DNA of 64,000 nucleotides from an uncultured Clostridia bacterium (GTDB lineage Bacteria > Bacillota > Clostridia > TANB77 > CAG-508): NCBI GenBank assembly GCA_944392605.1, contig CALXXE010000002.1, forward strand, positions 118,663-182,662. The letters are read 5' to 3'. The position numbers were made by a program, and so were the translations under genes. Shown here one piece after another: positions 19,728 to 55,900 of the stretch. How positions within the stretch are numbered: position 1 is the stretch's first letter; every line of letters begins with the position of its first letter. Under the pieces are notes generated by a model. The model had not been told where the DNA came from. It did no database searches and saw only the letters and a program-made list of their open reading frames with translations.

Positions 19728-22700
19728 ATGAAAAGTAAAATTATGAAATTAGTAACAGTGATGTTGTTATTAATCACTTTAACGATGATTAATTTTGTCT
19801 ATGTTGGAGTGGGCTTTATAAGTTTGGCTGCAGAGGATGTTTCAACTAATCATAGAAACATAGAATATACAGCAGAACTAAAAACTGAAAATCTTTTAAC
19901 ATTAAGTGTTACTGTAAAAAATGAAGGATATTTTAATGGAGAGATTACTTTAGAAAATAGTAATTTTACATTGAAAAATTCTAGTAGTGAATATGTAAAT
20001 AAAATAGAAGGAAACAAAATAACATTAAATCAAATAAATGCTGGAAGTACAGCTAGTTTTGATGTAGAAATAGAACCTGTAAAAGATGATAGTTTAGATG
20101 CAGGACTATTAAGTGCGGTATCAGAGCTAACATTAACAGGTGTTTATAAAAATAGTACAGAAAGAGATATAAATATAAATGCAACAAGAGCAGTTAAGTT
20201 AGAATATTTAGAAAACAACAGCGAAGATAATGTAGAAAACACTATGGAGTTAATTACAAATAAATTTGTAAAAGTAAATGGTGAAGAAAAAAGAGTTATT
20301 CAAATTTCTATGAATATGGGATTAAAAGAAAATAATTATCCAATAAAAGAAATAAATGCAAATGTAACTTTACCAGAAAATGAAGAAATTCCAGAAGTTG
20401 TTACAAAAGCTAACTTTAATACTATGACACATTTTGAATATGAATCTGACGAGCAAAATGTTAATTTAAAATTCAAAAATGAACCAAATGAAGATAATAA
20501 GATTTTATGGAAAAAATCAGGATGTGAAAATGTAATATTAACTTTAGTTTATAATAAAGATGTTAATTTAGAAGGAATTAAGTTACCAATAGAAGAAACA
20601 GTAAAATTATATAATGATAGAGAAATTAAAGTTTCAAATACAATAGAAATAGGAAATGAAGAAAAGGATGCTTTAATGCAAATTAGTAATACTTCATTAG
20701 AAGGAACAATTTATAAAGGAAAAATAAATGCCTCTTTAGATAGAAGTTTTGAAACTAGAACAGAAATAATGGTAAATTTAGCAAATACTGAAGGAAATGT
20801 TTCAGTAAAAGAAGATGCAAGTTTCTATTCATTAAATGATGGGCAAACAAGAAATGCAAATGTTGTTTATAATAAAACAAGTATTTCAAAAGATAGTTTT
20901 GATAAAATATTAGGACAGAATGGAACTATAACAATATTAAATGAAGATGGAATGGTATTAGGGATAATAACTTCACAGACAGAAGTAGATCAAAGTGGAA
21001 ATTTTGTTGTTGACTATTCAGGAAAAGAACCATCAAGTTTAGAAATAAGAACATCAACACCTATTTCTGAAGGAGATTTAATATTCACACATACTAAGAC
21101 AATAAGAGCTGGAGAAGAGGAAAATGTTAGGGGTGCAAATGGATTAGTAACAAACGTAACTATTGATTATTCTACAGGAGTAACAGCTAATTCAGAATCA
21201 ACAATAAAATTAGAAGAATCAAGAACAGAAGCAACTTTAGCAGTAAATAAAGATACTTTATCAACAGTAGTATCAAACGATGTTGAAATAAGAACAACGT
21301 TAAGAAGTAATAATGAACAATATAACCTATATGAAAATCCAAGAATTACTTTTGAATTACCAGAACCAGTAGAAAATATTACAATAAATAGCATAGATTT
21401 AGTATATGAAACAGAATTATCTATAGCTAATTATTGGGCTGATGGAAGAACAATAACAGTTGAATTAGCAGGAAGACAAACAAACTATAAAGATTCTGGA
21501 ATAGATGGAGCTATGTTAGTAATAAATGCATCAGTAGATGTAAATAGAAAATCTGCAACACAGGATGGAAAGGTGATAATGACACTTGAAAAGGGAGAAG
21601 AAGTAGTTACTGCTGAAAATAATATAAGAGTTGTAGCACCAACAGATATGACAGTAATTCATTCTATTTCTGATTTAGGTGTTGAAACAATAGGCCAAGA
21701 AGGAACAGAAGTAGTAAGTCTTGATAGAGGTTCTGAAGAAAAAGATTTACAAACACAAATAGAAGTAATAAATAACAACGAAAATGCTATGGAGAATGTA
21801 AGAGTTTTAGGAACGTTCCCAACTAGAAGTAATGAAAATAATATAGATACAGATATAATTCAAGGACTTGATGTCCAAGGAGTAGAAAATGCAAAAGTTT
21901 ACTATACTGAAAATGAAAATGCAACAGATGATTTACAAAATGGGGAAAACGGATGGCAAGAAACTATAACAGATGGTGCAAAAGTTAGAAAATATTTAAT
22001 AGAAGTACCTACAATGGATAGTGGAACAAGTATACTTGCTACTTATACAACAAATGTACCTGCTTCTTTGGAATATAATCAAGAGGCGAAACAAGATTAT
22101 ACAGTAAATTATCAAAACTCATTAACAAAAGCTACAAATCAAATGGAAGCTACAGATATTCAATTGGAAACAGGAGTTGGACCAATTTTAGAGACAAAAC
22201 TAACAGCAAGTGTAGCAGGAACAGATGAACAAAATGGAGCGACAGTAAAAAATGGAGAGGTAATTAAATATAAAGTAGAAGTATCTAATGTTGGTAGCGT
22301 TGATATAAGCAATGTACAAGTTAGAGGATCTGTACCAGAAGGTACAACATTAGTTACACCAAAAGATAATTTCGAATATACAGGAGCTTCATATTATGAT
22401 GAATTAGATAGCACAACTTATGAAGATACAATTGCTTCTTTAGCTGTTGGAGAAGTTGTAACAAAAGAATATGAAGTAAGAGTAAATAATGATACACAAG
22501 CAGGAACAAATTTAGTAAATAAATCAAGTATAACATATGGTGATGTAACTAAAGAATCTGAAGAATCAAACTTAGTTACAGAAAACGGAAATATACGTCT
22601 TACTGTTAAAAGAATAACAGATAGAGATACTGATTTATACGAAACAGGAAATATACAATATTTTGCAATAGTAGAGAATATTTCAGATGAAACTCAAAAT

Positions 22701-24563
22701 GACATAACAGTAAAAACTAATTTACCGGAGTCATTAGAAGTTTCAAGATTAAATTTAATTACAGGAATGACATCAAAAGATGTTTCTGATGGAGATTTAT
22801 TAGAAATGACAGTAGATAGTGTAGATGATTTAGTATCAACAGAACCTGTTGAAGTAACAGAAGAAGAGTTAATTAGCAATAATGCCAACATTCCTGAAAC
22901 AGAACAAATTGAATATCAAGATGAATTAAATATAGGTTCTTTAGAGCCAGGACAAAACAAAGTATTAAGTTATGACTTAAAAATTAATAAACTTGGAGAA
23001 GGAGAAACAATTGATTTTTCTGTAACTGCAAATGTTGGAAATGATGAATATCGTTCAAATAAAGTAACAGATAATGTAAGAAAAGTAGATGTAAGTTTAT
23101 CAATGACAGCAGAGCCAGATGGTGATTATGTAAAAGCTGGAGATACAATAAAATATAATATCAATGTTAAAAATAATGGTACACAAGATATTAATGATTT
23201 AATTGTAAAGGATGAAATACCATCTAGTTTAACTGTAACGAAAGTTTCACTTGATGGAGAAGAACTTACAGACTTAAAAGAAAAAAATAATTTGGAAATT
23301 CGTTTTAATATAGCAGCAGAAAGTGAAAGTAATATAGAAATAGAAACACTTGTAAATTACTCAGAAGGAAGAACAGAAGCAGAAGCAATAACTAATGTGG
23401 CTTATGCAGAAGTGTTAGCAGAAAGAGTAGCGGCTACTACAGAAATAACTCATATAATAGAAGCAAATGAAAATCAAAACCCTGGAAATATAGAACAACC
23501 TGGTGATAACACAGGTTCAGATAATAATGACGTAGCGAATGGAGATGGAATTATAACAGGTGTTGCATGGTTTGATGAAAATGCTAACGGACAAAAAGAT
23601 AATAATGAAGAATTAATAGATGGCATAAAAGTTCGTTTATATAATACACAAACAAATAATTTGGTAAAGAAAGAGGACGGAAGTACTCTAGAAGTTACAA
23701 CAAATGAAAATGGAGTATATGTATTAGACCATATAGCAAATGGACAATACATAGTAATATTTGATTATGATGATGCAGCATATTCATTAACAAAATATAA
23801 AGCTGAAGGTGTAAGTGAATCAAATAACTCTGATGCAATTATGAAAGAGTTAACTATAGATGGACAAACAGCAGAATATGCATCAACAGATATTTTAGAA
23901 ATGAGTGAAGGAAATATTTCTGATGTTAATGTAGGATATGTAGAATTACAAAATTTTGATTTACAACTTGAAAAATTTGTTAGTAGAATAGTTATACAAG
24001 ATTCAAGCGGAAGTACAGTAAGAGAATATAGTGATGAGACATTAGCAAGAGCAGAACTTGATGCAAAAAGAGTAAATGGAGCAACAGTATTAATAGAATA
24101 CAAAATTAGAGTAAGCAACGTAGGAGAAGTTGATGGTTATGTTAGAAGAATTGCAGATTATATGCCAAGTGATTTAACATTCAGTTCAGAGCTAAATAAA
24201 GATTGGTATCAAACAGGAAATGGATTATATACTGAAAGTATAGCAAACGATGTATTAGCACCAGGAGAATCAAGAGAGTTAACATTAACATTAACAAAAG
24301 CAATGACAGAAAATAATGTAGGATTAATTAACAATACAGCAGAAATAGATGAAGCTTATAATGAATTAGGATTAGCAGATAGTAACTCAACACCAGGAAA
24401 TAGAACAAATGGAGAAAATGATATGGGATCTGCGGACGTTCTATTAGGAATTAGAACAGGTGGAGCTGTATACATTGGTGGAGCTATAGCAACAGTTGTT
24501 GTTTTAGGAATTATAGCTTTTGTAATAATAAGAAGAAACAAAAAAAATAAAGAGGAAATATAG
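19728..24563 (+). CDS. large surface protein A: DUF11-like repeats, SdrD-type B domain, C-terminal membrane anchor
   Basis: A 1611-aa exported protein. Signal peptide about 1-36 (KLVTVMLLLITLTMINFVYV). The body is a chain of immunoglobulin-like beta domains: at least two DUF11-like modules (about 816-930, GEVIKYKVEVSNVGSVDISN, and about 1121-1210, AGDTIKYNINVKNNG) and an SdrD B-like domain at about 1276-1375 (GVAWFDENANGQKDNNEE). A last module ends in DSNSTPGNRTNGENDM, followed by a transmembrane helix (about 1578-1600) and a basic tail RRNKKNKEEI. No LPxTG-like motif precedes the helix, so it is probably membrane-anchored rather than sortase-linked. AAGGAGG lies 6-7 bases before the ATG. Gene B follows after 21 bp. 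The N-terminal half of the 3007-aa gene downstream is its paralog. Ligand unknown. Confidence 0.88.
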   Translation: MKSKIMKLVTVMLLLITLTMINFVYVGVGFISLAAEDVSTNHRNIEYTAELKTENLLTLSVTVKNEGYFNGEITLENSNFTLKNSSSEYVNKIEGNKITLNQINAGSTASFDVEIEPVKDDSLDAGLLSAVSELTLTGVYKNSTERDININATRAVKLEYLENNSEDNVENTMELITNKFVKVNGEEKRVIQISMNMGLKENNYPIKEINANVTLPENEEIPEVVTKANFNTMTHFEYESDEQNVNLKFKNEPNEDNKILWKKSGCENVILTLVYNKDVNLEGIKLPIEETVKLYNDREIKVSNTIEIGNEEKDALMQISNTSLEGTIYKGKINASLDRSFETRTEIMVNLANTEGNVSVKEDASFYSLNDGQTRNANVVYNKTSISKDSFDKILGQNGTITILNEDGMVLGIITSQTEVDQSGNFVVDYSGKEPSSLEIRTSTPISEGDLIFTHTKTIRAGEEENVRGANGLVTNVTIDYSTGVTANSESTIKLEESRTEATLAVNKDTLSTVVSNDVEIRTTLRSNNEQYNLYENPRITFELPEPVENITINSIDLVYETELSIANYWADGRTITVELAGRQTNYKDSGIDGAMLVINASVDVNRKSATQDGKVIMTLEKGEEVVTAENNIRVVAPTDMTVIHSISDLGVETIGQEGTEVVSLDRGSEEKDLQTQIEVINNNENAMENVRVLGTFPTRSNENNIDTDIIQGLDVQGVENAKVYYTENENATDDLQNGENGWQETITDGAKVRKYLIEVPTMDSGTSILATYTTNVPASLEYNQEAKQDYTVNYQNSLTKATNQMEATDIQLETGVGPILETKLTASVAGTDEQNGATVKNGEVIKYKVEVSNVGSVDISNVQVRGSVPEGTTLVTPKDNFEYTGASYYDELDSTTYEDTIASLAVGEVVTKEYEVRVNNDTQAGTNLVNKSSITYGDVTKESEESNLVTENGNIRLTVKRITDRDTDLYETGNIQYFAIVENISDETQNDITVKTNLPESLEVSRLNLITGMTSKDVSDGDLLEMTVDSVDDLVSTEPVEVTEEELISNNANIPETEQIEYQDELNIGSLEPGQNKVLSYDLKINKLGEGETIDFSVTANVGNDEYRSNKVTDNVRKVDVSLSMTAEPDGDYVKAGDTIKYNINVKNNGTQDINDLIVKDEIPSSLTVTKVSLDGEELTDLKEKNNLEIRFNIAAESESNIEIETLVNYSEGRTEAEAITNVAYAEVLAERVAATTEITHIIEANENQNPGNIEQPGDNTGSDNNDVANGDGIITGVAWFDENANGQKDNNEELIDGIKVRLYNTQTNNLVKKEDGSTLEVTTNENGVYVLDHIANGQYIVIFDYDDAAYSLTKYKAEGVSESNNSDAIMKELTIDGQTAEYASTDILEMSEGNISDVNVGYVELQNFDLQLEKFVSRIVIQDSSGSTVREYSDETLARAELDAKRVNGATVLIEYKIRVSNVGEVDGYVRRIADYMPSDLTFSSELNKDWYQTGNGLYTESIANDVLAPGESRELTLTLTKAMTENNVGLINNTAEIDEAYNELGLADSNSTPGNRTNGENDMGSADVLLGIRTGGAVYIGGAIATVVVLGIIAFVIIRRNKKNKEEI

Positions 24564-24584
24564 AGGAAAGGAGGGAAAGTTCAA

Positions 24585-27500
24585 ATGAGTAGATTAAAGA
24601 AAATAGCACTCACTGTAGCAATTACGGTACTTGCAATATTAGGGATTACAACTATTTCAAATGCATATCAAGTAGGACAAACTATATCATTAACTCAAAG
24701 TCAATATTTGAATAGTAGTAATATATTTTGTATGGAGCATACGCAACATACTATAAGCTTAATGTACTATAGAATTATATCAAATGTAAGAATCGAAGGA
24801 ACGAAATCTACGGACCATACAGGAAAGACTATAGATAGTTTTGATAATGCTAGATTTGCATATATATTGTCACAAGACAATGGTCCTAGTAAAAGAACAG
24901 GACCGGTGCAAAATGCTATTTGGAATTTTGCATATACATGGATGAATAATGTAGGACAATATCATGCAGGACTATATAATGGTTTTGCGGGAAGTGCACG
25001 TGGAACTACATCTTGGCTAGACCAAGCAGCAATAGATTATGCAAACCAAATTTCTGGTTCAAATCAAGTAACAGATAATACAAATAAAGATAATATACAA
25101 GTAGTAGCGTATAATAGAGATGGAAAATCATACATGAGAATAGGACCATTTAACTGGACATTTGGAGGAACAATAACTGAAATTAACGTGTTCGACCAAG
25201 ATTCTAACCCTATATCAGAAAAATTGTATAGTAGTTTCTCAGGAACAACAGAAAACTTCTTTGATGTAAGTGGCATAAAATCTGGTACAGATTTCTATAT
25301 CTCTGTACCAATAGATGGAAACGTTACAAAAATAACTAAGATAACTGGAAAAGCACAAATGGAAGTTAAAGGTGTAAACATTTGGTTCTTAGAAGCAACA
25401 GAAGGATATCTACAAAATATGATAATAAGAGAACCATATACAACTACTGTACCTATAGAAATAGACTTTGATTATGATATAGATTTAACAGGAAGATTAA
25501 GAATAGTAAAAGTAAATAAAGATAATCATGAATTTAAATTACCAGGAGTAGGATTCTACATTATGAATGATGATATAGGAAAATATGTAAAACAAAATGA
25601 AGATGGAAGTATTTCATATGTAGACACTAAGGAAGAAGCAACAGAGTTTATAACAGATGAAAATGGTGAAATCTATATTGAAAATTTAATAGTAGGACAT
25701 TATACAGCTTATGAAACTCAAAATCCAAATTACGGATATGAATTCTTAACTGATGGACGAACAACAGAAATAAAGAAAGATGAAACGACAGTATTTATGA
25801 TTGAGAACAAGCAAATATATGTAAAACTATCAGGAATTGTATGGGTAGACAAAATATCAGGAAAACAATCATATAGAAATGACTTATTTAAAGACAATGA
25901 TTATGATGATGCAGATATTTTATTAGACGGAATTACAGTAAGATTAAAAGATAGAACAACAGGTGAGACTGTAATGGAAACAACTACAGCAGATGGTGGA
26001 GCATATTTGTTTATGGATGTTCTAATTGAAAATCTACAAAATTATTACATCGAATTCGAATATGACGGATTAACATATACTAATGTAATTCCACATCTAG
26101 AGAATGAAGAAAATGGTTCTAAATCTGCAGAAAATGCAGAAGTAAGAGATAGATTTAATAAGAACTTTAGTACTGTAGAGGGTGGACAAACAGAAGATAC
26201 TGGAATTACTCTTGATGAGAACGGAAATAAAGTTCACGATTTAAGTTATAACTTAGATCAAAACGAACATACAGCAACATTAATAAATAATGGACAATAC
26301 TTAATTACAGGAAATACTGATGAGACTGGATATAGTATTTGGGATAACTTTACATATGGTATGGAAGAAATTAAATGGATTAACCAAGGTTTATATGAAA
26401 GAGAACAACCAGATATGGCATTAATTAAAGACTTGGAGAATGTAAGAGTTGCAGTTAATGGATATCAACATGTATATCAATATTCACAAAGATTCTTAAA
26501 TCAAGGTGAATATGGCGATGGATTTAATGTTGGTGTAAAATTCGGTAATAAATATGGATCTATGTCATATACAAGAGCAATTTATAAAGCAGACTACGAA
26601 TATATAAATGAAGAAGATCCAAGTAAAGAGTTAAAAGTTTATGCAACATATAGAATTGCTTTAAGAAATGAATCTACAAATCTAATTACTCAAATAAATA
26701 GTATAGTAGATTACTATGATAGTAACTATACGCTTCTGAGAGCAGGAACAGCTTTAGATGAAAATGGAAGTATAACAGGTGAGGAACTTGTTCATACAGA
26801 TACAACATATAATGATGAATATTCAAAGACAGTAATAGAAACAAATACTAGATTAGAAGCGCAAAAACAAGCTGACATTTATGTAGAATTCCAATTAAGT
26901 AGAGAACAAGTAGTTACTTTACTAAATGATGGAGAAGTTCTAGATAATGTAGTAGAAATTAATTCTTATTCAGTATTTGATGCAGATGGAAACGTATATG
27001 CAGGTATAGATAAAGATTCTAACCCAGCAAACGCAACTCCAGGAAATGAAGCAACTTATCAAGATGATACAGATTCAGCACCAGGATTTAAATTAGAGCT
27101 TGCAGATGCAAGAACATTATCTGGTAAAGTCTTCTTAGATTCAACAACTGGAGAATTAATGACAGGTGAGGTAAGACAAGGTTCTGGAGCATATGAAGAA
27201 GGAGAATTAGGAATTCCAGGAGTGGCAATTACATTAACAGAAAATACAGGAAGCGGAAAAGTATATACGGCTACAACAGATGAAAATGGAGATTTCTTAA
27301 TTACAGATTATATACCAGGTGATTATACTTTAACATATACTTGGGGAGATGACACATATACAGTACAAAACTATAAAGGAACAGTATATGATAGCTCAAG
27401 AGACCAAACAAATAAACAATGGTTTAAAGAAGATGTAGATACAAGAAAAACAGATGCTATTGATAACTATAACCAAGATCAAGAAGCACCAAAAGGTTCA

Positions 27501-28514
27501 AGAATACAAATAGATGAAGAACTTAAGACAATAACAAATAGCACTGAAATAACAAGACATCAAATGGATTCTACAACTCCTACAATGGGAATTGGTGTAG
27601 AATATGATAGCGTATATACAGCATCTTCAGGAGATAGATATACTTATGAGATCAACAATGTTGATTTTGGTATAGTAGAAAGAGCAAGACAAAAACTAGA
27701 CTTAGCTAAGAGAGTAGGGAGTGTAAAAGTAACACTTGCAAATGGACAAGTATTAATAGATGCAACACTTGATGAAGATGGTAATGTAACAGGAGAAGCT
27801 AACCATTTAACTCATATGGGACCATCAGAAACTGCAAGTCCAGAAAATGGATATGTGAGAGTTGAGCTTGATAATGAGTTAATACAAGGTGCAACATTAG
27901 AGGTCGGATATGTAATTACGACAACAAACTTAAGTGAGTTAGATTACTTATCAGAAAACTTCTATAAATATGGAATAGTAGAAGGAGATGTTGTAACAAT
28001 TACTCCAACAGCTATAATAGATTATTTGGATAATGATTGGTCATTTGATAATACAATAAATCCTGATTGGGAAGTTAGAACAGTTGATGAAATTAGAGAT
28101 ATAGTAGCAGAAGTTGTATATAATGATGAGAATTCAACAATTACAGAAAAGACAATTCTATATACAGAAAGTTTAAGTGATGAAAAATTAGAACCAACGC
28201 AATCTGCAAGTATAAACTTATTAGTATCTAAGATATTAACAACATCTGATGATATCTCAATAGATAATGAAACAGAGATTAATAGATTAGATAAGACAGG
28301 TGGTTCTAAACCAGAAGAAACACCAGGAAATTATATTCCAGGTACAGGAAGAACAGAATCAGATGACAACATTGCGGAAACAGTTATTGTCACACCAGCA
28401 ACTGGTGCAAACCTAGCATTTGTTTTACCAATATCAATTGGAGTAATAGCATTAGTAATACTAGGAGTAGGAATCTTCTTAATAAAGAGAAAAGCATTAA
28501 GAAATAAAGAGTAA
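24585..28514 (+). CDS. large surface protein B: probable thioester domain, Cna-B/SdrD B domains, TPATG anchor
   Basis: A 1309-aa exported protein with signal peptide 1-27 (cut near ISNA). Residues about 40-160 look like a thioester adhesin domain: Cys49 in NIFCMEHTQH and Gln109 in GPVQNAIWNF are placed as in the domains that form an internal Cys-Gln thioester and bond covalently to host amines. Then follow a Cna-B-like domain (about 305-410, LRIVKVNKDNHEFKLPGVGF), SdrD B-like modules (about 413-520, LSGIVWVDKISGKQS, and about 845-925, LSGKVFLDSTTGEL), and a beta-rich region with DSNPANATPGNEA. The end has TPATG (1270-1274), a hydrophobic helix and a Lys/Arg tail, a non-canonical sortase signal. 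It is translated from its own AAAGGAGGG site, 21 bp after gene A, so A and B are one operon. No sortase gene is in the window. Confidence 0.85.
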   Translation: MSRLKKIALTVAITVLAILGITTISNAYQVGQTISLTQSQYLNSSNIFCMEHTQHTISLMYYRIISNVRIEGTKSTDHTGKTIDSFDNARFAYILSQDNGPSKRTGPVQNAIWNFAYTWMNNVGQYHAGLYNGFAGSARGTTSWLDQAAIDYANQISGSNQVTDNTNKDNIQVVAYNRDGKSYMRIGPFNWTFGGTITEINVFDQDSNPISEKLYSSFSGTTENFFDVSGIKSGTDFYISVPIDGNVTKITKITGKAQMEVKGVNIWFLEATEGYLQNMIIREPYTTTVPIEIDFDYDIDLTGRLRIVKVNKDNHEFKLPGVGFYIMNDDIGKYVKQNEDGSISYVDTKEEATEFITDENGEIYIENLIVGHYTAYETQNPNYGYEFLTDGRTTEIKKDETTVFMIENKQIYVKLSGIVWVDKISGKQSYRNDLFKDNDYDDADILLDGITVRLKDRTTGETVMETTTADGGAYLFMDVLIENLQNYYIEFEYDGLTYTNVIPHLENEENGSKSAENAEVRDRFNKNFSTVEGGQTEDTGITLDENGNKVHDLSYNLDQNEHTATLINNGQYLITGNTDETGYSIWDNFTYGMEEIKWINQGLYEREQPDMALIKDLENVRVAVNGYQHVYQYSQRFLNQGEYGDGFNVGVKFGNKYGSMSYTRAIYKADYEYINEEDPSKELKVYATYRIALRNESTNLITQINSIVDYYDSNYTLLRAGTALDENGSITGEELVHTDTTYNDEYSKTVIETNTRLEAQKQADIYVEFQLSREQVVTLLNDGEVLDNVVEINSYSVFDADGNVYAGIDKDSNPANATPGNEATYQDDTDSAPGFKLELADARTLSGKVFLDSTTGELMTGEVRQGSGAYEEGELGIPGVAITLTENTGSGKVYTATTDENGDFLITDYIPGDYTLTYTWGDDTYTVQNYKGTVYDSSRDQTNKQWFKEDVDTRKTDAIDNYNQDQEAPKGSRIQIDEELKTITNSTEITRHQMDSTTPTMGIGVEYDSVYTASSGDRYTYEINNVDFGIVERARQKLDLAKRVGSVKVTLANGQVLIDATLDEDGNVTGEANHLTHMGPSETASPENGYVRVELDNELIQGATLEVGYVITTTNLSELDYLSENFYKYGIVEGDVVTITPTAIIDYLDNDWSFDNTINPDWEVRTVDEIRDIVAEVVYNDENSTITEKTILYTESLSDEKLEPTQSASINLLVSKILTTSDDISIDNETEINRLDKTGGSKPEETPGNYIPGTGRTESDDNIAETVIVTPATGANLAFVLPISIGVIALVILGVGIFLIKRKALRNKE

Positions 28515-28827: not shown

Positions 28828-31800
28828 ATGAGTAAAAGAAATGTTGCAAAAATAATTGGTTTAGCTTTGTTAATAGTTTTTGCAATAGTAATGGGAAAAT
28901 TATTATCAAAAACTAGTTTTGGAGCTGACAATGAAGAAAGTGCTATTTTGGAAGGTGCTTTTGACAAATATGTAAATTATGAATTAGAAGATGGAAGTAA
29001 AGGCACATTGGTACAATATAGCATTAGAACAGGAATTAACTATGGAGGTGACTTTTTTGCCGTTAGAAATTCAGAGCTAAATATTACTTTAAATCAAATA
29101 GATGGTAAATATCCAAACGATGTTAAAGTAATTGCAGAGAGTACTAAATCAACAAATGGAAAAACATCTGATATAAGCGAAGACTATAGTTACGATTCTA
29201 GTACGGGTATATTAACAATAAGGACAAGTAATGAAAATGAAAATGGAGAACCTGTATACAATCAAAGACCGGTAGAAAATGACAGAGATGAATTTGTAAT
29301 TATTTCTTATTATGATACATTTACTCAAGATAAAATAGAAAGAGATTTATCTTGTGATGTAACATATAAAGCTATATTATTTACAGATGACAATAGAGAA
29401 GTCTTAACTCAAGGAAGATTAGAACAAAAAGTAACAGATGATGTAGGAGAATTGACATCTGTAGATACGAATATAAGTGATATATATAATGGATACATGA
29501 AATCTAATATTATAAACGGAACAGCTTATGATACAGAATATACAGAAAACAATGAGATAACAATAAGCAAAAAAGAAGCACACCAAAAAATAAAAATAAC
29601 AGAAGAAAATACATTTGTTAATCCAAATGATATAGAATATAAAAGCACAAAGATACTAAAAGATGATATCTTAAATGTATTAGGTGAAAATGGTAAAATT
29701 GAAGTATTAGATGGAAATAATAATGTGATTGCAACAGTAGATAATAGTACAGAGTTTAACGAGAATGGTGAATATATAGTAACATATGGAGACGATGTAA
29801 ATAATATTTCTATAAAAACAAGTGACATAATAAATGAAGGAGTATTGCATATAGAAAATGTAAAGAAAATAAAAAGCAATGAGACAAACTTAGATGATAA
29901 AGAGATTACAAGAAAAATAAATATAGTAGGAATAAATGAAAAAGAAGTAGAAGTACCTGTAGAGGAAACAAGTACAGAAGAAATACCTACAAGTATAAAT
30001 ATCGGAACATTAAACCTTAATACTAATAATGTAAATAATGAACAGCAAAAAGATGAGAACATTGAAAATAATGAGAAAAAAGAAGTTCAAATTGTAGAAG
30101 AAGAGAGTTATAGAATTGAAAAAGAGGATGTAATTGAAGTAAAAGATTCAACAACAAATGTTAGTGTAAATGTTGATAATACTAATTGGACAAATGAAGG
30201 ACAAAATAGTGTTAATTTTGTTATTACTTTAGATTCAAGTACAGCTAAAAATAATTTATTTAAAAATCCAACTATAAAAATAAATTTACCAAAAGAAGTT
30301 GAAAAAGTAATATTAGGTGATAGTCAATTACTATATTCTAATGGATTAGGTTTAGTAAACGTAGAAATTCAAAATAATGAAGATGGAAGTATAAGTATAT
30401 TGGCAACATTAAATGGTAGTCAGACACAATATCAAGAAAGTAATTTAGGATTAGTTACAACGTTAACAATTCCAGCTAATATAATGATAAGAAAAGATTT
30501 AGAAAATAATATGACATCAAAGATCAATACTATATACACGAATGAATATGATAGTACTCAAGGGGAAATAAATCAAGATGTATCAATAACAGCATATATA
30601 GGTCAAAATACTGTAGGAGATAATGTAATATCTAATAATGAAACAAGTATTGGAGAGATTATAGCAGATAAAAAAGATAAAATAATGAATACTGTTTTTA
30701 AAGATATTGATGCAGATGAGTATGGGCTAAAAGTAAAGATAGATGCTTATAAGGGCGATGAAAACAAACCATTAACAGATAGTGATATTGTGTATTCAGG
30801 AGAATATATTACTTATAAAATAACTTATACAACTGAGAAAGAGATAGATAATTTAAAATTTGTTGTAAATATTCCTGAAGGATTAACATATGGAAAGCTA
30901 TCTACAAAATCTGATGATTTATTTGAACGTTCATATGAGTATGAGTTTTTTGAAGACCAAAGAGAAGTAGTAATAGAAGAAGAAAATATAAAATCTGGTA
31001 TAACATATGTTGAACATGTAGATTGTAAAGTAAATGATTTAGAAGAATCTAAAGAGATAGAAACTGATATAAAAACATATATTGAAGAACAAGAAGTAAA
31101 AGATGATAAGATTAAACATGTACTAGAGCATGGTGAAGCTAGCATATTTATAAAGCCACTATTAGATGGTTTTGGAGATGAGTGGGTTTATAATGTTAGT
31201 ATAAATACACCAGAGGAAGAAGCAAGTACGATAAAATTAATATTCCCAGAAGGAGTAAAAATAGAACAACAAACAATAGTGGATTCTCAATCATTTGTAG
31301 TACCATCAGGAGGATTAGAAGAAGAAGCGGTTACATATGAATTCGGAATTGATGAAGAAACTGGAAGGGATAATGTTACAGTTAATATTAGTCGTGGTGG
31401 AAATTTAGAATTAGAAATACATATTAAGATATTAGATCCATCAAAGATAATAGAATTATATAGAGAAAGTCTAAAAACAACAAAATCGGATGAAGACTAT
31501 AATATGAGAGCATATGCTACAATGGAAGTTGGCGGAAAAACATACTATTCAAATGAAGGAAAAACAAAAAGATATACTTATGAAGCATCTGTAACAATGA
31601 CATCTGAAAACGAAGGTGAAGAAGTAGAAAGTGGAGAAGAAATAAACTATAATATCAATGTTAAATGTTTAAGTACGGAATATAATAATTTTGAAGGGTT
31701 AAATGTCAATATAATAGATTATATACCTAAAAATCTTGAAATAAAAAGTATAACTTACGAATACTTCGAAACAGTAGCTGAGGAAGGTGAAGCAGGAAGT

Positions 31801-34800
31801 GGTACAGTAATAGGATTTACAGAAAAGAAAACTAAAACAGAGGATGTATTTTATACAAAAACAGATGCAGATGGAAATGTTTTACCAGATATAGATTTCC
31901 AAACTTGGATACCAAAAGGTGAGAATATAAATATTTTAGTAAAGACAACAGCAAGAAATGTTACAGAAAGGACAGAAATTGAAAATAGTGCAACAATTCA
32001 AGATAAACCAATAGAAGCAGGAGAAAATGAAGAAATAAAAGATTACATAGATCCTCAAACTTCAAATGTTGTAAAACATATAATTGTTCCAAAAAAGGAT
32101 GAACCAGAAGAACCAGATAATCCAGACAACCCAGATAATCCTGATAATCCAGATAACCCAGATAATCCAGACAATCCAGATAACCCAAGTACACCAGATA
32201 ATAAATACGATATATCAGGTGTTGCATGGAATGATATAAATAGAGATGGACAAAGACAAGCAACTGAAGATTTACTATCAGGAATTCAAGTATTACTTGT
32301 AGATTTAGGAGATTCATCTAATGTTAAAGCGCAAACAACAACAACTAATGGAAGATACGAATTCAAAGATTTAGAAATGGCAAATTATATAGTAGTCTTT
32401 AGATATAACACAACACTTTATATGTTAACAGAATATAAAAAGAGTGGAATTTCAGAAGAAGTAAATTCTGATGTAATGGCGCAAACAATAACTTTAGACG
32501 GACAAAAGGAAGATGTAGCAGTTACAGATGAAATTGTCTTAAATCAAGATGAAAACAATATAGACATAGGTTTAATAGGAAAAGATGGTTATGACTTAAA
32601 ATTAGACAAATATATAACTGATGTAACAGTAACAACAGTTAATGGAACAAAACAATATTCATATGATAATACAAAATTAGGTAGAGTAGAAATTAGAGCA
32701 AAAGAATTAAATGGGGCACAAGTTTCTGTAAAATATAGAATTGTTATTACAAATGAAGGTAAGGCATCAACAAAAATAAAAGAAATATATGACTATATTC
32801 CAAATGGTTTAGAGTTTTCAGTTAGCGAAAATTCTAACTGGATAGAAGATAATGGAATACTTGTAAATAGGAGCTTATCAGGAGAATCAATTGATCCAGG
32901 AGAAAGCAAAGAAGTAACATTAACATTAAAGAAGACAATGAGTGAGGAAAATACAGGAACATTTAAAAATGCAGCAGAAATTGGAGCAGTAGAAGATGAG
33001 TCTATAGGAATAAAAGATTCTGATTCAACGCCAGGAAATAGAAATACAAGTGAAGATGATTATTCAGAAGCAGAGCTAATTATTGGTGTAAGTACAGGTT
33101 TAATGACATATATAACTATAGGAGTAATATCAATATTAGTTATAGCAATAATAGTAGCAATAACTATCAAATTTAAAATAAAACCAAGTAAGATAATGAA
33201 AGTAGGAATGTTCCTAGTAGCAATTATAATGATAGGAATGACATCAACTAACACATCATATGCAGCAGTACCATCTAGTGGAAGATATAGATGGTATACA
33301 GAACATACATTTACAGGTTCTCCTGGAGGTGGAGGTACATGCGGTAACTATAATAGAAGAGCTGCAGGAACAGGATGTCCACATTATGGAGGATCAGAAA
33401 GTGCAACTATTTACATAAGTTACTATTTTGGAGGAGATCTTACAAGTGTTTCTTATAGTGGAGAAATTAGCGGAACAGGATATGTTGTATCAGACCCAAT
33501 AAATCTACAAAAAGACAATGAAAAAATTGAAGCAAGATTTGTAAATGGATATTATATATTAGGACCATTTGAGGTTACTTCAAATTCTTCAGAAGACTGT
33601 TCATTAGAAGTAACTGATAAATCAGGTTCAAGAATCGATGGTTGGGCAGCATGTGATGCAAGTGGAAATGCTTGGAGTAGTATTCCTGGAAATACAGATT
33701 TTTATATAAAGTTAACAGAGGAAGCATTTAAAAGAGGAGTTTCTAGTGTTAAATTAACTCAATCTAAATGGTATAAATATACATACCAAGTTTATAAATA
33801 TGCTAGAGCACATTATTATGCAAATGGAGATGCAGGTCAAGCATGTAAAGTATTATATAATGGTAGTGTTATAACAGGTTATGGACATCAAAGTGTTTGG
33901 TCATATGAATTTCAAATCGGACAAGAAGAAAGAAGTAATGAATATAATACAACAGCAACTATCGAATGGACAGATTTTAACTCAACATTAGATTTATTAA
34001 AAGTGGATGCAGATGATCATGAAATTGTAATAGATATAGAAGGAAATATAGTAAAAGATGATGGTTCATTTAACGAAAACTTTACAACAGTGGATGGATT
34101 ATATCATTGGGATAACTTAATTCCAGGAAATTATACTATAACAGAAACAGGAAACGACAACTATGGATATGAAGATAATGTAGGATTACAAGTAACAGTT
34201 CCAGTACCAAGTGGTGAACCTGTAAAATATGAATTTGAAAATACTAAATATACAGGAAACTTAAAGATTGTTAAGAAAGATAAAGACAGCGGAAGTCCAA
34301 TGGCAGATGTTGGTTATAAGTTACAGGCAGAAGAAGGCTATGTAATAGGAATAGATGATAATGAAAATAGAATAACTACGGCACGAGGGCAAGTACATTT
34401 TAGTAATATGGAATATACACAAGATATAAGTCAGGCAACAGAATTCTTTACAGATGACAATGGTGTATCAGAGATTCTTAATATAAGAATAGGAACATAT
34501 ACAGTAATAGAAACATCAATAAACATTGATAAATATGGATATGAGATAGATGATAATTACATATTCTGGAGTAGTAATATGGGTTCAGGACAAGGGGCTA
34601 TAGGTCAAGTAGAAGTAGTAAGAAAAGAATCATTTATTACAACACCAAAGAACCATACATTAACAGATAGTGACTATGATATTATAACATTTGAAAATAG
34701 AAGAAAATGGATTAAGTTATCAGGAGATGTATGGGAAGACATGATAAGTGGAAAAACATCAGAAAGAGACTATAGATACACATCAGGAGATTCTACTGAA

Positions 34801-37800
34801 AATAATCCGGATAAATTAGTAGCAAATGTAACTGTAAAATTAAAAGATGCAAGTGGAAATACAGTACCATTTAAAACAGAGGAAACAGCAAGTAATGTAC
34901 TTTCAGGAAATTACGATGGTAGCAGTAATAGAGGAACAACTGTAAATGAAATCTTAACAGATGAAAATGGACATTATTTAATGGTAGATATATTAATAGA
35001 TGAAATACCAAATTACTATATTGAATTTTCTTATAATGGAATGAGTTATGCATCAGTTCCAGTAATTGAAGCATTATTAAATAATGAAAAAGGTGGAACA
35101 AAAGCAATAGAAAATGCTGATGTAAGAGCAGAATTTAACAGAAAATACTCAGAAATAACACATAGTGGAACAACAGGACCAGTAGGAGAGTCAAGAGATG
35201 ACACAGGAAGAAAAACATATGATTTAAATTATGATACAGATGAATTTTATGATGGAAGCAATCAGCGTAAGAGTACATTAAACTATGGACCAAATGCAGT
35301 ATATGGATATGATGGACAAAAATTCCCAATAAATATGACAGATGAACAATATATGATAACAGCGACAACAAGAGATGCATATCTTTCAGTTGCGGGAAAT
35401 TCAGGATACTTAGATGATATGTATACACCAGATGAGATAAGAAAACAAGAGATAGAAGAAATAGAAAACGTAGATTTAGGTATATATGAAAGAGAGCAAC
35501 CAGATTTAGCATTAATAGAAGATATCGAAACAGTACAAGTATCATTAAATGGATATGTACACACATATAACTATGACCAAAGATTTAGTGCAGTAGATCC
35601 AGTTCAAAATGGAGGATTTAATGTAGGTGTTAAATTCGCAAATGAATATGGTTCAGCAGAATATACACAAACAATATACTCATCAGATGTAGTATATAAT
35701 GGACAAAATCCAGAAAGTCTAGAAGTTTATGTAAGATATAAGATAGCATTAAGAAATGAGGCAACAGACTTATATACTAGAGTAAATGACCTTATAAATT
35801 TCTATGATAATAGATATACAATTGATAGCATTGAAGATGAAGAAGGACATACATTTAATTACACAGATGAAGGAACAATAGGAGATTATAAGAAAGCAAC
35901 AATAGAAGATGTAAATCAAGACTTAGAGTCACAAAAAGTAAAATATGTATATATCACATATAAACTAAATAATGATGCGATAAATGCAGTATTAAATGAT
36001 GATCAAGAATTTGTAAATAATCCATTAGATTCAGTCACAGAAATAGCATCATACTCAACATTCACAGATGGATTTAGTACACATTATGCAGGAGTTGATA
36101 AAGACTCTAGACCAGGATCAGCAGAGCCGGCAAATGAAGAAACATTTGAAGATGATACAGATAGTGCACCAGCATTCAAGTTAGTACTAGAAGAAGGAAG
36201 AGTAATATCAGGAACAGTATGGGAAGATGAGGCTTTGCAAGATTTATTGAATATAACTAATGATCCAAGCAATGGAGTTTATAAAGAAAGAAAAGGTAAT
36301 GGAGAATACGAGCAAGGAGCAGAGAGCGTAGTTAATGGTGTTACAGTAGATTTAATAGTATTATCTAATACATCAGGAGAAATTAGCTCAGAAGAATTAG
36401 CAAATGCAGATTTATCAGGAGAATTAAGTGGAACAGAGCCTACAATAGGATCATTATATCAAAGAGAGGATCTTAATAATCCAGTACCAGCAACTACGAC
36501 AACAGGAACAAATCCAGATACAGGGGAAAATGGATACTATGAATTCTCAGGAGTAATACCAGGAGCATATTTACTAAGATTCACATATGGAAATGAAAGC
36601 ATAATAGTAAGACCTGATGGAACTCAAGAGCAAATAGAAGATGTAGATAAGTATAAATCAACAATCTATAGAGGCGGAAGTGCAGATAATATCGGAGACG
36701 AATATTGGTATAGAACTGAAACATCAGGAGAGCCAAGTGCTCTAAGATGGTCAGATGCTAGAGATCAAGTAGGCATAAATGGAAATGGTAAATATGACCT
36801 TCTAGCAGATAGATTCAATAATACTAAGAGATTCTATTATGGAAATACAGGCGTAGCAAATCCAGAAACATTAACAGCTATAGAGTCAAGATCAAGAGGA
36901 TTCGAAATTAAGATGGATTACGATGTTAACTTAGATAATATGAGTACTTATGCAGAGCAGGATGCGGGACTTAAATTTATATTTGATAATATGGATTTTG
37001 GTATTATAAGAAGACCAATACAAAGACTAGATCTTAATAAGGAAATATCATATATTAAAGTAACATTAGCAAATGGACAAGTAGTAATCGAAGGAGATCC
37101 AAGAACTGAACAAATTGATCACGTAAGATTCCTACCAGATGGAGATGGAGACGGATGTGGAGATGTTCATATCGAGTTAGACAGTGAAATAATGCAAGGA
37201 GCTACATTAACTGTAACATATGATATAATAGCAGACACTATGGATTCTGAAGTAGACTACAAGACAGAGGATTACTATATATATGGAATTCCATCAAGCA
37301 ATATAGATGATATAATAGCACCAGGTATAGAGAGGTTATTCGACTATCTATCAAATGAAATATCATATGATGAAACTAACCAAACTAATATAGATTCAGG
37401 ATGGGAAAATATTAGAAATGAGAGTATGTTTGAAACTTTAGTAGAAGATGGTTACTTATCACAAGAAGCATTTGATGCAATTAAAGAATATAATCAAGTA
37501 TTATCAACAAATGCGTTTGCAGATATGAAAATAGAAAGACGTGTTGAACACTTAGAAGTATCTAAAGTATTATCAAATACAGCAGAGGATTTAATATTTG
37601 ATAATGACTTAGAAGTAAATATATTAACAGGAAGAAGAACAACAAAAGAAGAAGATGATGATGAATATACAATACCAGGAGATTATGTACCAAGTAATGG
37701 ACCAACTGGTGGAGACGATGATTATAGATATGTTACAGTAACGCCTCCTACTGGTGAAAACCAAAATTATATGCCATATATTATTTTAGGAATTAGTGCA

Positions 37801-37851
37801 TTTATAATCTTAGGTACAGGAATTATCTTTATTAAGAAGAAAGTATTATAA
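28828..37851 (+). CDS. 3007-aa surface polyprotein: paralogs of surface proteins A and B in one frame
   Basis: Residues 1-1450 follow gene A: signal peptide (about 1-33), DUF11-like modules, an eight-fold Pro-Asp-Asn linker (32113-32184), an SdrD B-like domain (GVAWNDINRDGQRQATED), the DSDSTPGNRNTSEDD segment and a transmembrane helix (about 1425-1449). Instead of a stop, a short basic loop (KFKIKPSKIMK) leads into a second hydrophobic stretch, VGMFLVAIIMIGM, ending TSYA-A with a signal-peptidase-like site after Ala1479. Residues 1480-3007 follow gene B: Cna-B domains, SdrD-like LSGDVWEDMISGKTS, a propeller-free beta-rich region and TPPTG (2972-2976) plus helix and Lys tail. The Cys and the QNAIW motif of B's thioester domain are not found; a Cys/Gly-rich segment stands there. 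No ribosome site precedes the internal ATG 33196. Probably one translation product cut into two exported chains. Confidence 0.87.
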   Translation: MSKRNVAKIIGLALLIVFAIVMGKLLSKTSFGADNEESAILEGAFDKYVNYELEDGSKGTLVQYSIRTGINYGGDFFAVRNSELNITLNQIDGKYPNDVKVIAESTKSTNGKTSDISEDYSYDSSTGILTIRTSNENENGEPVYNQRPVENDRDEFVIISYYDTFTQDKIERDLSCDVTYKAILFTDDNREVLTQGRLEQKVTDDVGELTSVDTNISDIYNGYMKSNIINGTAYDTEYTENNEITISKKEAHQKIKITEENTFVNPNDIEYKSTKILKDDILNVLGENGKIEVLDGNNNVIATVDNSTEFNENGEYIVTYGDDVNNISIKTSDIINEGVLHIENVKKIKSNETNLDDKEITRKINIVGINEKEVEVPVEETSTEEIPTSINIGTLNLNTNNVNNEQQKDENIENNEKKEVQIVEEESYRIEKEDVIEVKDSTTNVSVNVDNTNWTNEGQNSVNFVITLDSSTAKNNLFKNPTIKINLPKEVEKVILGDSQLLYSNGLGLVNVEIQNNEDGSISILATLNGSQTQYQESNLGLVTTLTIPANIMIRKDLENNMTSKINTIYTNEYDSTQGEINQDVSITAYIGQNTVGDNVISNNETSIGEIIADKKDKIMNTVFKDIDADEYGLKVKIDAYKGDENKPLTDSDIVYSGEYITYKITYTTEKEIDNLKFVVNIPEGLTYGKLSTKSDDLFERSYEYEFFEDQREVVIEEENIKSGITYVEHVDCKVNDLEESKEIETDIKTYIEEQEVKDDKIKHVLEHGEASIFIKPLLDGFGDEWVYNVSINTPEEEASTIKLIFPEGVKIEQQTIVDSQSFVVPSGGLEEEAVTYEFGIDEETGRDNVTVNISRGGNLELEIHIKILDPSKIIELYRESLKTTKSDEDYNMRAYATMEVGGKTYYSNEGKTKRYTYEASVTMTSENEGEEVESGEEINYNINVKCLSTEYNNFEGLNVNIIDYIPKNLEIKSITYEYFETVAEEGEAGSGTVIGFTEKKTKTEDVFYTKTDADGNVLPDIDFQTWIPKGENINILVKTTARNVTERTEIENSATIQDKPIEAGENEEIKDYIDPQTSNVVKHIIVPKKDEPEEPDNPDNPDNPDNPDNPDNPDNPDNPSTPDNKYDISGVAWNDINRDGQRQATEDLLSGIQVLLVDLGDSSNVKAQTTTTNGRYEFKDLEMANYIVVFRYNTTLYMLTEYKKSGISEEVNSDVMAQTITLDGQKEDVAVTDEIVLNQDENNIDIGLIGKDGYDLKLDKYITDVTVTTVNGTKQYSYDNTKLGRVEIRAKELNGAQVSVKYRIVITNEGKASTKIKEIYDYIPNGLEFSVSENSNWIEDNGILVNRSLSGESIDPGESKEVTLTLKKTMSEENTGTFKNAAEIGAVEDESIGIKDSDSTPGNRNTSEDDYSEAELIIGVSTGLMTYITIGVISILVIAIIVAITIKFKIKPSKIMKVGMFLVAIIMIGMTSTNTSYAAVPSSGRYRWYTEHTFTGSPGGGGTCGNYNRRAAGTGCPHYGGSESATIYISYYFGGDLTSVSYSGEISGTGYVVSDPINLQKDNEKIEARFVNGYYILGPFEVTSNSSEDCSLEVTDKSGSRIDGWAACDASGNAWSSIPGNTDFYIKLTEEAFKRGVSSVKLTQSKWYKYTYQVYKYARAHYYANGDAGQACKVLYNGSVITGYGHQSVWSYEFQIGQEERSNEYNTTATIEWTDFNSTLDLLKVDADDHEIVIDIEGNIVKDDGSFNENFTTVDGLYHWDNLIPGNYTITETGNDNYGYEDNVGLQVTVPVPSGEPVKYEFENTKYTGNLKIVKKDKDSGSPMADVGYKLQAEEGYVIGIDDNENRITTARGQVHFSNMEYTQDISQATEFFTDDNGVSEILNIRIGTYTVIETSINIDKYGYEIDDNYIFWSSNMGSGQGAIGQVEVVRKESFITTPKNHTLTDSDYDIITFENRRKWIKLSGDVWEDMISGKTSERDYRYTSGDSTENNPDKLVANVTVKLKDASGNTVPFKTEETASNVLSGNYDGSSNRGTTVNEILTDENGHYLMVDILIDEIPNYYIEFSYNGMSYASVPVIEALLNNEKGGTKAIENADVRAEFNRKYSEITHSGTTGPVGESRDDTGRKTYDLNYDTDEFYDGSNQRKSTLNYGPNAVYGYDGQKFPINMTDEQYMITATTRDAYLSVAGNSGYLDDMYTPDEIRKQEIEEIENVDLGIYEREQPDLALIEDIETVQVSLNGYVHTYNYDQRFSAVDPVQNGGFNVGVKFANEYGSAEYTQTIYSSDVVYNGQNPESLEVYVRYKIALRNEATDLYTRVNDLINFYDNRYTIDSIEDEEGHTFNYTDEGTIGDYKKATIEDVNQDLESQKVKYVYITYKLNNDAINAVLNDDQEFVNNPLDSVTEIASYSTFTDGFSTHYAGVDKDSRPGSAEPANEETFEDDTDSAPAFKLVLEEGRVISGTVWEDEALQDLLNITNDPSNGVYKERKGNGEYEQGAESVVNGVTVDLIVLSNTSGEISSEELANADLSGELSGTEPTIGSLYQREDLNNPVPATTTTGTNPDTGENGYYEFSGVIPGAYLLRFTYGNESIIVRPDGTQEQIEDVDKYKSTIYRGGSADNIGDEYWYRTETSGEPSALRWSDARDQVGINGNGKYDLLADRFNNTKRFYYGNTGVANPETLTAIESRSRGFEIKMDYDVNLDNMSTYAEQDAGLKFIFDNMDFGIIRRPIQRLDLNKEISYIKVTLANGQVVIEGDPRTEQIDHVRFLPDGDGDGCGDVHIELDSEIMQGATLTVTYDIIADTMDSEVDYKTEDYYIYGIPSSNIDDIIAPGIERLFDYLSNEISYDETNQTNIDSGWENIRNESMFETLVEDGYLSQEAFDAIKEYNQVLSTNAFADMKIERRVEHLEVSKVLSNTAEDLIFDNDLEVNILTGRRTTKEEDDDEYTIPGDYVPSNGPTGGDDDYRYVTVTPPTGENQNYMPYIILGISAFIILGTGIIFIKKKVL
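32113..32184 (+). repeat. eight tandem Pro-Asp-Asn codon triplets
   Basis: A 9-bp repeat unit (CCAGATAAT and synonymous variants) occurs eight times in frame and encodes a flexible acidic linker between the DUF11-like part and the SdrD B-like domain of the fused surface protein. It could vary in number by slippage. Confidence 0.9.
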
Positions 37852-52880: not shown

Positions 52881-52926
52881 TAATATATATATTTATATTA
52901 TATAAACAAAAGGGAGACTGTTGGTT

Positions 52927-55900
52927 ATGGAAAAATTTAAGGGGAAACTAAAAACTTTTAAGGAGATTATTTTAAATCGCAAGAAACAAATTTCTATTGT
53001 TGCAATTGTTTTGGTTATAGTTGGAATTGCAACAACATTAATTTACAAAAATGTAGAGCAAGCAAAAATGCTAGCTAATAATCCAGAACTTGCAAAGGCA
53101 ATGACATATGATCAAGTGCAAGATGGAGAAGAAATAGTAGAAGGAACAGATGGCAACGTAAAATTTGATGCCTTTTTCTTGCGTGACTTAAATGGAGATG
53201 GAGATGCAGAGAGCATAAGAGGAACATCTAGACAAATAGGAAAAGAAGATACCTTGTATATGGAACTAAATGTAGACACAGCAGGGTACCTTAAAGATGC
53301 AAAGATTACAATAAATGAAGATAGTAATTTTTATTTCCAAACAGCACTTCCAAAAGATAATGAGCTTAAAGATAATTATATAGGAAGTAATATAAGGACT
53401 ATAGAATTTAATCAATTAAACAATGGAACACAGAAAATGTTAACAGGAGTTGTAAGAAGTGGAAGTTACACATTTTCAACGACTAAAAATGAAGCGATAG
53501 GGAGCAATATAAATAATTATAGTAAAGTAAATAGTGTAACTTTAACAGGAACATATGTAACAGAAGCCAATCAAGAAATTCCAATAACAAAAACAGTTAA
53601 TTTTAATATAGATTGGTATGGAACAGCAACAGCCAGAGTTAATACTGCTAAAGAAAATACTGACAATGAGTTAGAAGAAGCAATAGATGAAGAAAATGGT
53701 GTTATTAAATTAGATTTTGTCATAAATACAGAAGAAACAGATTATGAGTTGTTATTAGCTAAAAATCACGTAGAGGGAGAGATTCCTTTATTTAATGGAT
53801 ATGCTGCAGAACGTGTTAGATATTTAAGTGGTTCAGGAAAATTTGTGTACGATGCAGAAAATAGAACTTTTTCAATAGATAAAACAGCCTATATATCGAG
53901 TCAAGGAGAAATAATATCTAAATTACCACAAGAAAATGAATATATAATAAGGGTAGAATATCCATTAGAAGCATATCAAGAGCTAGGAGAAGATACTATA
54001 GAACTAAAAATACCTATAAGTTCATATTATGAAGGATATAACAACCAAAGTGAAGAATTTACAAATCCATATAGATCGAATACAGAGAACTCAACAATTG
54101 TAGCTACATATGATAACCCAACAGGAAATAATATTTTGTTTGAAGTTGAATTGGGAAAAATTATGTATGATCCAAAAAGATATATAGTTTCTAAAAATAA
54201 ACCTTTAAGAATATATAATGGAATAAGTGAAACAGAAAAAGATGATACGTTTGTAGTTAAGTGGAGAGCAAGTATAGGCGATGGAATCGGTTTACCGGGA
54301 ATGATAATGAAAGAAACAGAAAATGGAATAGAACAGGTAACAGATAAATTTATCCTAAATAATGCAGAAGAAGTTAGTGCAGAAAATGTTATTTCAAATA
54401 TAGGTATTGCTTTTTCTGGAGCGGATAAGATTCTAGGAGAAAAAGGATGGATAAAAGTTTATGATGATGAATCAGGAGAATTAATAGAGACGTTTACAAG
54501 CGAAAATTGGAACAATTATTCATTAGGTTCACCATATAAATATAATGTTCCAACAAAACATGTCAGAGTAGAAACAAGTTCAATAGGTAATGATAAAGCT
54601 AATTTCTATGTTTATAATGTTAAAGAGATAGATGATAAAAAAATAACAAATGAATATACGAGAGATGAATTTGATTATATTGAATATATAAAATCATCAC
54701 TAGTAGGATATGTAGGTGGAGAATATGTGAATTCAGATACTAATCAAGCTCATTATGAAGCACCTCTTTCTGTTGCTAAAATAAATATAAAAAATGATAC
54801 AATTTCAACGCAAAAAACAGAAGAACATGCAATTATAGAAATAAGAACTGAAGCGAATTCAAATTATAATCAAGTACAATGGAGAAATGGTATATTTTTA
54901 ATAAGACTTCCAGATGAAATAGTAACAGCAGAAATAAATACTGTAGAAATAGAAAACGAAAATGTAATATTAGAGAGTTATGAATTAATAGAAAATGAGA
55001 ATGGAAGGTTTATAAAAATAGTTACAAGTAACAATATACCTCAAACATTTATTATAAAAGTAGATGCGAACTTATCACCAGATCCAAGAGAATCAACAAA
55101 AACAACTAATTTACAATTATATGCAACAAATGAAGATGCAGAAAGTTATTTTGAGAATGAAAAAGATATATATGATGTTAATAACAATTTAAATGTTGAA
55201 GAGTTAGTAAATTATGATAGTGTAAGTTTAACTATAGTATCACCAAATAGTTTATTAACAAATCAAATAGCGACTAATTACGATGATAAAGGTAGTATAA
55301 TAGTTTCTCCTCAAATTGCTGACATTAAACCTCGATATGCAATTGTAGATCAAGAAGAAAAAGAACAAACTGCAACAATTGGTGTACAAATAAATAACAA
55401 TTATACGAATACAATAAGTGATGTGAAAATAATTGGAAGGGTACCTTTTAAAGGAAATACATATGTTTTAAAAGGTGGAGATTTAGGATCAACATTTAAT
55501 ACTACAATGACAGAAGAAGGAATAATAATACCAGAAGAGCTACAAGATCAAGTTAAAATATATTATTCTGAAAATGAAAATGCAGACAAAAACATATTAA
55601 AAGAAGAAAATCAATGGAAATTGAAAGAGAATGTTAGTAATTGGGATAATGTAAAATCATTTCTAATTGATTTCTGTGAATATGTAATTCCGACAGGAAA
55701 AGAGTATATATTTAATTATACAATAAAATTACCAAAAGGATTAAAATTCAATGAAGTAGCTTATAGTCAGCATGGTGTATATTTTAATCTGGATACTAAT
55801 GAAGGAAAATATGAAACAGAAGTAGAGAGTAATAAATTAGGTTTAAGAATTGCAGAAAAATTTGATTTAGAGTTAACTAAATATCATATAGGTAAAGACA

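Follow-up and report, generated by a model that had tools for sequence, protein, structure and literature searches.

A joined surface-protein gene of uncultured Clostridia, probably encoding a polyprotein with an internal signal peptide

Can a bacterium make from one open reading frame (ORF) the two surface proteins that a neighbouring operon makes from two genes? The question is raised by a 64,000-nucleotide stretch of DNA from an uncultured Clostridia bacterium (assembly GCA_944392605.1, contig CALXXE010000002.1, positions 118,663 to 182,662), hereafter called the window, in which the joined gene A2-B2 (28828-37851, forward strand, as are all features given below) runs through 3007 amino acids in a single frame. 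The original prediction described this gene as a one-frame repeat of the plan of the preceding genes A and B, and both halves do align with these neighbours: the N-terminal part matches gene A at 30% identity over 596 amino acids, and the C-terminal part matches gene B at 32% over 1246 amino acids (E 1e-140). The ORF therefore holds two complete protein units, as a bacterial polyprotein should. Our best explanation, to which we give a probability of roughly 0.78, is that the product is one Sec-exported polyprotein, stopped by a transmembrane helix (TM1), restarted by an internal signal peptide and cut by signal peptidase I into an anchored A chain and a B chain with a sorting signal. What can be seen from the sequence is an in-frame fusion of A and B, kept over much divergence, in which B lacks a ribosome site of its own and the junction has retained a membrane hairpin.

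The joined gene and its relatives

The protein begins with a signal peptide or hydrophobic segment (residues 1-32; 28828-28923). The A half ends in the C-terminal domains typical of A (residues 1129-1419; 32212-33084), namely an SdrD_B match at residues 1131-1222 (55.2 bits) followed by another beta domain. The predicted mature B chain (residues 1480-3007; 33265-37848) contains a SpaA match at residues 1810-1910 (33 bits; both Pfam matches lie above the gathering score). A fold search with the AlphaFold2 model returned only matches of low template modelling score, SdrD at the top and integrins and pilins after it, which we read as suggesting an Ig-like fold and no more. Nine stop-to-stop frames longer than 1000 residues occur in the window and in three further stretches of the same genome (L085-L087); only the joined ORF has internal transmembrane-like segments, those of the other eight lying near an end only.

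Sequencing or assembly error was the first rival to be weighed. As the original prediction had cautioned, both other frames do carry a TAA at the junction (33174-33176 and 33179-33181), which could let a single-base error join two genes. However, relatives are open through the same region. A junction-region query searched against the 97 genomes of the window's genus recovered frames of about 2270 to 3670 amino acids with no stop within the match. Regions were then taken from 72 of these genomes, the window's included, and at least one copy of the joined gene with an open junction was found in 20 of the 72, a proportion that is no frequency because the genomes were picked from the listed matches, many of them for long frames. 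Three copies are present in one genome (G076) and at least two in each of two others (G051 and G181). Beyond the genus, one joined gene was confirmed in a genome of another genus (G180), the only such case; five other genomes of the family, chosen for long frames (G165, G127, G116, G228 and G124), have separate A and B genes. In two genomes, G023 and G089, the sampled regions have neither gene. A profile of A1 covering the A-end domain and the junction matches 194 of 195 family genomes. Among GTDB contigs, the joined gene stands at 11 of 23 named loci, on 10 contigs, all from uncultured Clostridia metagenome-assembled genomes (MAGs) with BRZ bin names; these share one naming scheme and possibly one project, and the bins differ. 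Six of the 10 contigs add to the sampled genomes, the nearest being CALXAY010000011.1, 71% identical at the query.

The search of related genomes proposed with the original prediction thus located the joined gene in the genus, in G180 and on six further MAG contigs, and the finding that would have undone the proposal, relatives that always have two separate genes, did not materialize: the joined state forms one lineage of A ends. Hairpin, basic loop and signal-peptidase-like site recur in joined genes down to 34% identity with the window over the aligned region. The single-base worry is answered because relatives carry the open joined ORF, including the ten named contigs from separately binned MAGs, and the linker holds no Shine-Dalgarno (SD) sequence for an indel to expose. 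We rejected error as the source of the fusion and regard it as scarcely credible. A phage origin was likewise set aside, as a tblastn search of the junction against 50,697 phage records gave no match. On this sequence evidence the joined ORF is real and conserved, and the gene is probably a functional polyprotein.

Some copies differ in arrangement or integrity. In G076, three joined genes stand in tandem after one separate A1-B1 pair (L045 9284-18475; L046 1-8499 and 8757-17990). Several joined genes (in L053, L072, L073, L078, L106, L107, L071 and L123) are frameshifted at or after the junction, chiefly within B and in some copies more than once; this could reflect decay, phase variation or MAG error.

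A membrane hairpin with signal peptide features

What lies between the two halves? A GVSTG motif (residues 1420-1424; 33085-33099) directly precedes TM1 (residues 1425-1447; 33100-33168), which would anchor the A half by stopping transfer. The basic loop KFKIKPSKIMK follows (residues 1448-1458; 33169-33201), then the short hydrophobic core of the proposed internal signal peptide (residues 1459-1471; 33202-33240) and a c-region ending in TSYA (33241-33264); signal peptidase I is predicted to cut after A1479 (33262-33264), between positions 33264 and 33265. The transmembrane helix, short basic loop, second hydrophobic segment and TSYA-A site after residue 1479 that had been proposed are thus all present. 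This plan, with [SGA][VI]xTG, a full-length transmembrane helix, a net-positive loop and a short hydrophobic core, is kept in all 41 linkers of joined genes; the net charge of the loop is +1 to +7 throughout and +5 in the window. AlphaFold2, run on an alignment of 12 sequences, places two helices at residues 1424-1449 and 1453-1473 with a 3-residue break between them, at moderate confidence, in keeping with the membrane hairpin that the original prediction had considered possible.

If the second segment is a signal peptide and not an anchor, its core should be short and a cleavage site should follow. The core has a median length of 11 in the 41 linkers, whereas TM1 and the C-terminal transmembrane segments of 114 separate A genes both measure 16 and are alike in this respect (p 0.90). 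A first signal peptide model drifted into the hydrophobic core and left internal segments and TM1 unseparated (p 0.19); it was replaced by a site matrix for which 83 separate B genes were the sole training set and in which position -1 was limited to A, G, S or C. This matrix was applied to 33 different junctions, with broken copies and the joined genes of L171-L174 left out. The best site has Ala at -1 in 26 of the 33. Median scores are 0.8 for internal segments, -8.8 after TM1 and -5.8 at random mature sites, and internal segments differ from TM1 flanks at p 5e-12; 15 of the 33 internal segments, and none of the 33 TM1 flanks, score above the 10th percentile for genuine B signals. In comparison with shuffled tails, 16 of the 33 sites reach p<0.05 individually, and the combined p is 4e-17, a value that overstates independence because the copies share ancestry. 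The prediction of signal peptidase sites that had been called for at residues 1425-1485 gives the window's TSYA|A a score of 2.67 (shuffle p 0.0125). The window therefore has the positive n-region, short h-region and -3/-1 site expected of an internal signal peptide, the site being weak or absent in a few relatives, and the second segment looks, from its sequence, like a signal peptide more than an anchor.

Several points weigh against cleavage. The core is shorter still than in the signal peptides of 90 separate B genes (median 11 against 13.5, p 6e-14), the internal sites have lower scores than signal peptides of separate B genes (p 6e-11), only the 15 and 16 of 33 sites given above pass the two thresholds, and a few joined genes (L055, L053 and L061) have no convincing cut site. 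Confidence of the AlphaFold2 model at the hairpin is moderate (predicted local distance difference test, pLDDT, 52-76 for the block). The lower scores and the genes with no clear site are what a real but uncut fusion would lead one to expect, that is, a two-pass protein whose two giant extracellular parts are linked by the membrane hairpin. However, the short core and the Ala at -1 speak against this reading because an uncut hairpin would require neither; the core is unlike TM1, and the sites score far above the TM1 flanks. We therefore consider an uncut fusion unlikely.

The B half might also be made alone, from an internal start near 33196 or another in-frame start, and then be exported by what would have become an N-terminal signal peptide. 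The window has a plausibly placed in-frame ATG at 33196 (residue 1457), the only in-frame start between TM1 and the second core, and 17 of the 41 linkers have an in-frame ATG in this interval. In separate pairs, the region upstream of B pairs with the anti-SD sequence at a median of -11.4 kcal/mol (below -7 in 33 of 37 pairs; -11.4 for B1), whereas the duplex upstream of the ATG at 33196 is +0.3 kcal/mol, in agreement with the original prediction that no ribosome site precedes it. This absence is general: among all in-frame ATG, GTG and TTG codons that lie between TM1 and the second core in the 41 linkers, the strongest upstream duplex is -5.6 kcal/mol, short of the -7 threshold (L053_G002_1, whose frame stops at the junction, is excluded from this scoring). 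Moreover, 24 of the 41 have no ATG in this interval and 20 have no ATG, GTG or TTG, so that in these 20 a B protein with its whole signal peptide could not be made alone from a usual start codon and would reach the surface only within the joined chain. As far as sequence can tell, then, the second unit has no independent translation start, and internal initiation appears very improbable.

If signal peptidase I does cut at the internal signal peptide, the course of export can be proposed. The N-terminal signal would bring the chain into the Sec translocon and the A half would cross until TM1 halts transfer, with the basic loop remaining cytoplasmic. The short second hydrophobic segment would act as a re-start signal peptide, the B half would cross, and signal peptidase I would cut after A1479. 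The A chain would then be anchored by TM1, the former signal peptide probably being retained as a second membrane segment, and the B chain would have a fresh N-terminus and may be attached by sortase through TPPTG. One ribosome would yield both chains at one place and in equal numbers. The window's genome has a signal peptidase I match of 135.7 bits.

History of the two halves and their sorting motifs

Was the joined gene inherited as a unit? A tree of the A-end domain, aligned without the transmembrane segment and linker, comprised 153 rows (42 joined, 94 separate and 17 of unknown state) and needs one change of state. All 42 joined rows fall in one group of 45 (support 93), whose other three rows are of unknown state: L091 and L123, both of which show the hairpin, and L119, which ends with the sampled stretch. 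Of the 42 joined genes, 38 are open through the junction and four are broken at or after it; among the 38, the two of G049 and the one of G072 break later, in B. Rows with weak domain scores or shorter than 120 residues were excluded, among them one joined gene (L063, G041). A more careful tree of 84 rows, 42 joined and 42 separate (with 40 of the separate rows chosen at random), also has one change, with support 90/80, recovered in 90% of 200 bootstrap trees. Four rows had been relabelled from separate to joined-type with frameshifts at or after the junction; an earlier 120-row tree, made before relabelling, had four changes.

The B half tells a different story, one that adds to the points against our preferred reading. 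Its C-terminal region gave a tree (126 rows, 38 of them joined) that requires 12 changes of state, with 15 in a FastTree version, and trees by quarter from the junction outward need 9, 16, 16 and 16; 27 weak or right-truncated rows were left out of the B trees. Because of these 12 changes (9 to 16 by block), the gene was not inherited as a whole, and single inheritance was rejected. The joined label thus goes with the A end and weakens with distance from the junction, the pattern that recombination of B modules next to a retained linker would produce, and these trees suggest that joined and separate genes have swapped C-terminal modules of B. Repeated independent fusion is less likely, given the single group formed by the A end.

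The end of the joined gene has the plan of a sorting signal (residues 2972-3007; 37741-37848), with TPPTG at residues 2972-2976, a hydrophobic stretch and a basic KKK tail, so the B-like half does have the TPPTG anchor of its own that had been described. Of 90 separate B tails, 76 have the xPxTG motif; of the 30 B ends of joined genes that were scored, 16 have xPxTG, 11 have PTG at another spacing and three are broken. The A end carries a motif that resembles a sorting signal with no Pro: of 108 separate A tails, 98 have [SG][IVL]xTG directly in front of the membrane anchor (for example at 24447-24461 of the window), six others have some other xxxTG, and the four with none are joined-type genes with a break after the junction, or similar cases. 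Position 2 is occupied by V, I or L instead of Pro, as in GVSTG of the window.

These motifs bear on whether something other than signal peptidase divides the chain, either another protease (for example a surface protease, as for SlpA of Clostridioides difficile) or a sortase that releases A at the internal GVSTG. The genome has nine sortase matches (PF04203) over the cut-off, TG is invariant in 26 aligned joined genes, and [SGA][VI]xTG precedes TM1 in all 41 linkers. However, V or I replaces Pro, and in the parts of the reports available, an NVQTG peptide is not cleaved by C. difficile SrtB (PMC4371152) and is a poorer substrate of that enzyme (PMC5118464). Both facts weaken the case for A as an ordinary sortase substrate, and we do not claim sorting of A because an NVQTG-type peptide is left uncut by SrtB. 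Neither a protease nor a sortase would explain the internal signal peptide features, and this alternative seems distinctly improbable. Nor does the locus look like one for a sortase-assembled pilus: the window's contig (C2) carries no sortase match out of the nine, in a genome that is 88.7% complete.

A more elaborate proposal, which we regard as rather a long shot, treats the junction as a cassette of sorting-like xTG, stop-transfer helix, basic loop and cleavable signal peptide. It would give two surface chains through one signal peptidase cut and up to two sortase cuts, the spent signal would serve as a second anchor of A, and B modules would be swapped by recombination while the cassette is kept. 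If this were true, the junction cassette would be a natural connector for surface polyproteins.

Neighbouring genes, known systems and meaning

Gene A (A1; 19728-24563) encodes a DUF11/SdrD_B surface protein of 1611 amino acids with a C-terminal transmembrane anchor, preceded by GIRTG (24447-24461). Gene B (B1; 24585-28514) encodes 1309 amino acids with a signal peptide, SpaA/SdrD_B domains and a sorting-signal-like TPATG end. Separate A-B pairs such as this one (19728-28514) have the same domains, anchor and signal peptide as the joined gene but are split in two, A and B being set apart by a stop codon, a strong ribosome site and, in most cases, a gap of some 15-25 bases; in the window this gap (24564-24584) holds a strong Shine-Dalgarno sequence, aggaaaggaggg, that is not present in the joined gene. 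The locus is flanked by mreB, mreC, a gene for a penicillin-binding protein and minC, genes of cell shape and division, on one side, and by a spoIIE-like gene on the other. At 52906-64000 a giant frame has 3698 residues in the window and runs past its end; it has a single transmembrane-like segment, at the N-terminus, similar to the one in a frame of 5216 residues on contig C15 (L087).

Among bacterial polyproteins cleaved by signal peptidase, the nearest known case is FbcH of Bradyrhizobium japonicum, a cytochrome b/c1 precursor in which the second protein starts with an internal signal peptide, so that one ORF gives two membrane or exported products. Its products are proteobacterial respiratory membrane proteins, not giant surface proteins, and the likeness that we draw is one of kind. 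SlpA of C. difficile is also one exported precursor that gives two surface chains, which form a heterodimer, but it is cut by Cwp84, and the domain plan in the available part of the report has one signal sequence and none internal (PMC7445750). The structural proteins of flaviviruses, Gn/Gc of SFTSV (severe fever with thrombocytopenia syndrome virus) and IGSF1 come, in the portions of the reports available, from precursors with an internal signal peptide or a co-translational cut between membrane-linked parts; unlike the joined gene, these viral and animal precursors depend on the signal peptidase complex of the endoplasmic reticulum, and the proteins are unrelated. Among the literature matches listed, in several lists the best 10-20 alone, and from a search that most subscription journals lay outside, none reported a surface polyprotein with an internal signal peptide in bacteria, Gram-positive bacteria included.

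Polyproteins are a strategy familiar from viruses and, to our knowledge, rarely described in bacteria; cells usually tune paired surface proteins by operons. This lineage of uncultured Clostridia appears instead to fix two giant surface chains in one translation product, an arrangement kept through much divergence. Signal peptide prediction that is limited to N-termini misses such proteins. The joined gene would be a natural bacterial counterpart of viral polyprotein processing, and it may serve as a model in which to study how Sec and signal peptidase deal with signal peptides inside a chain.
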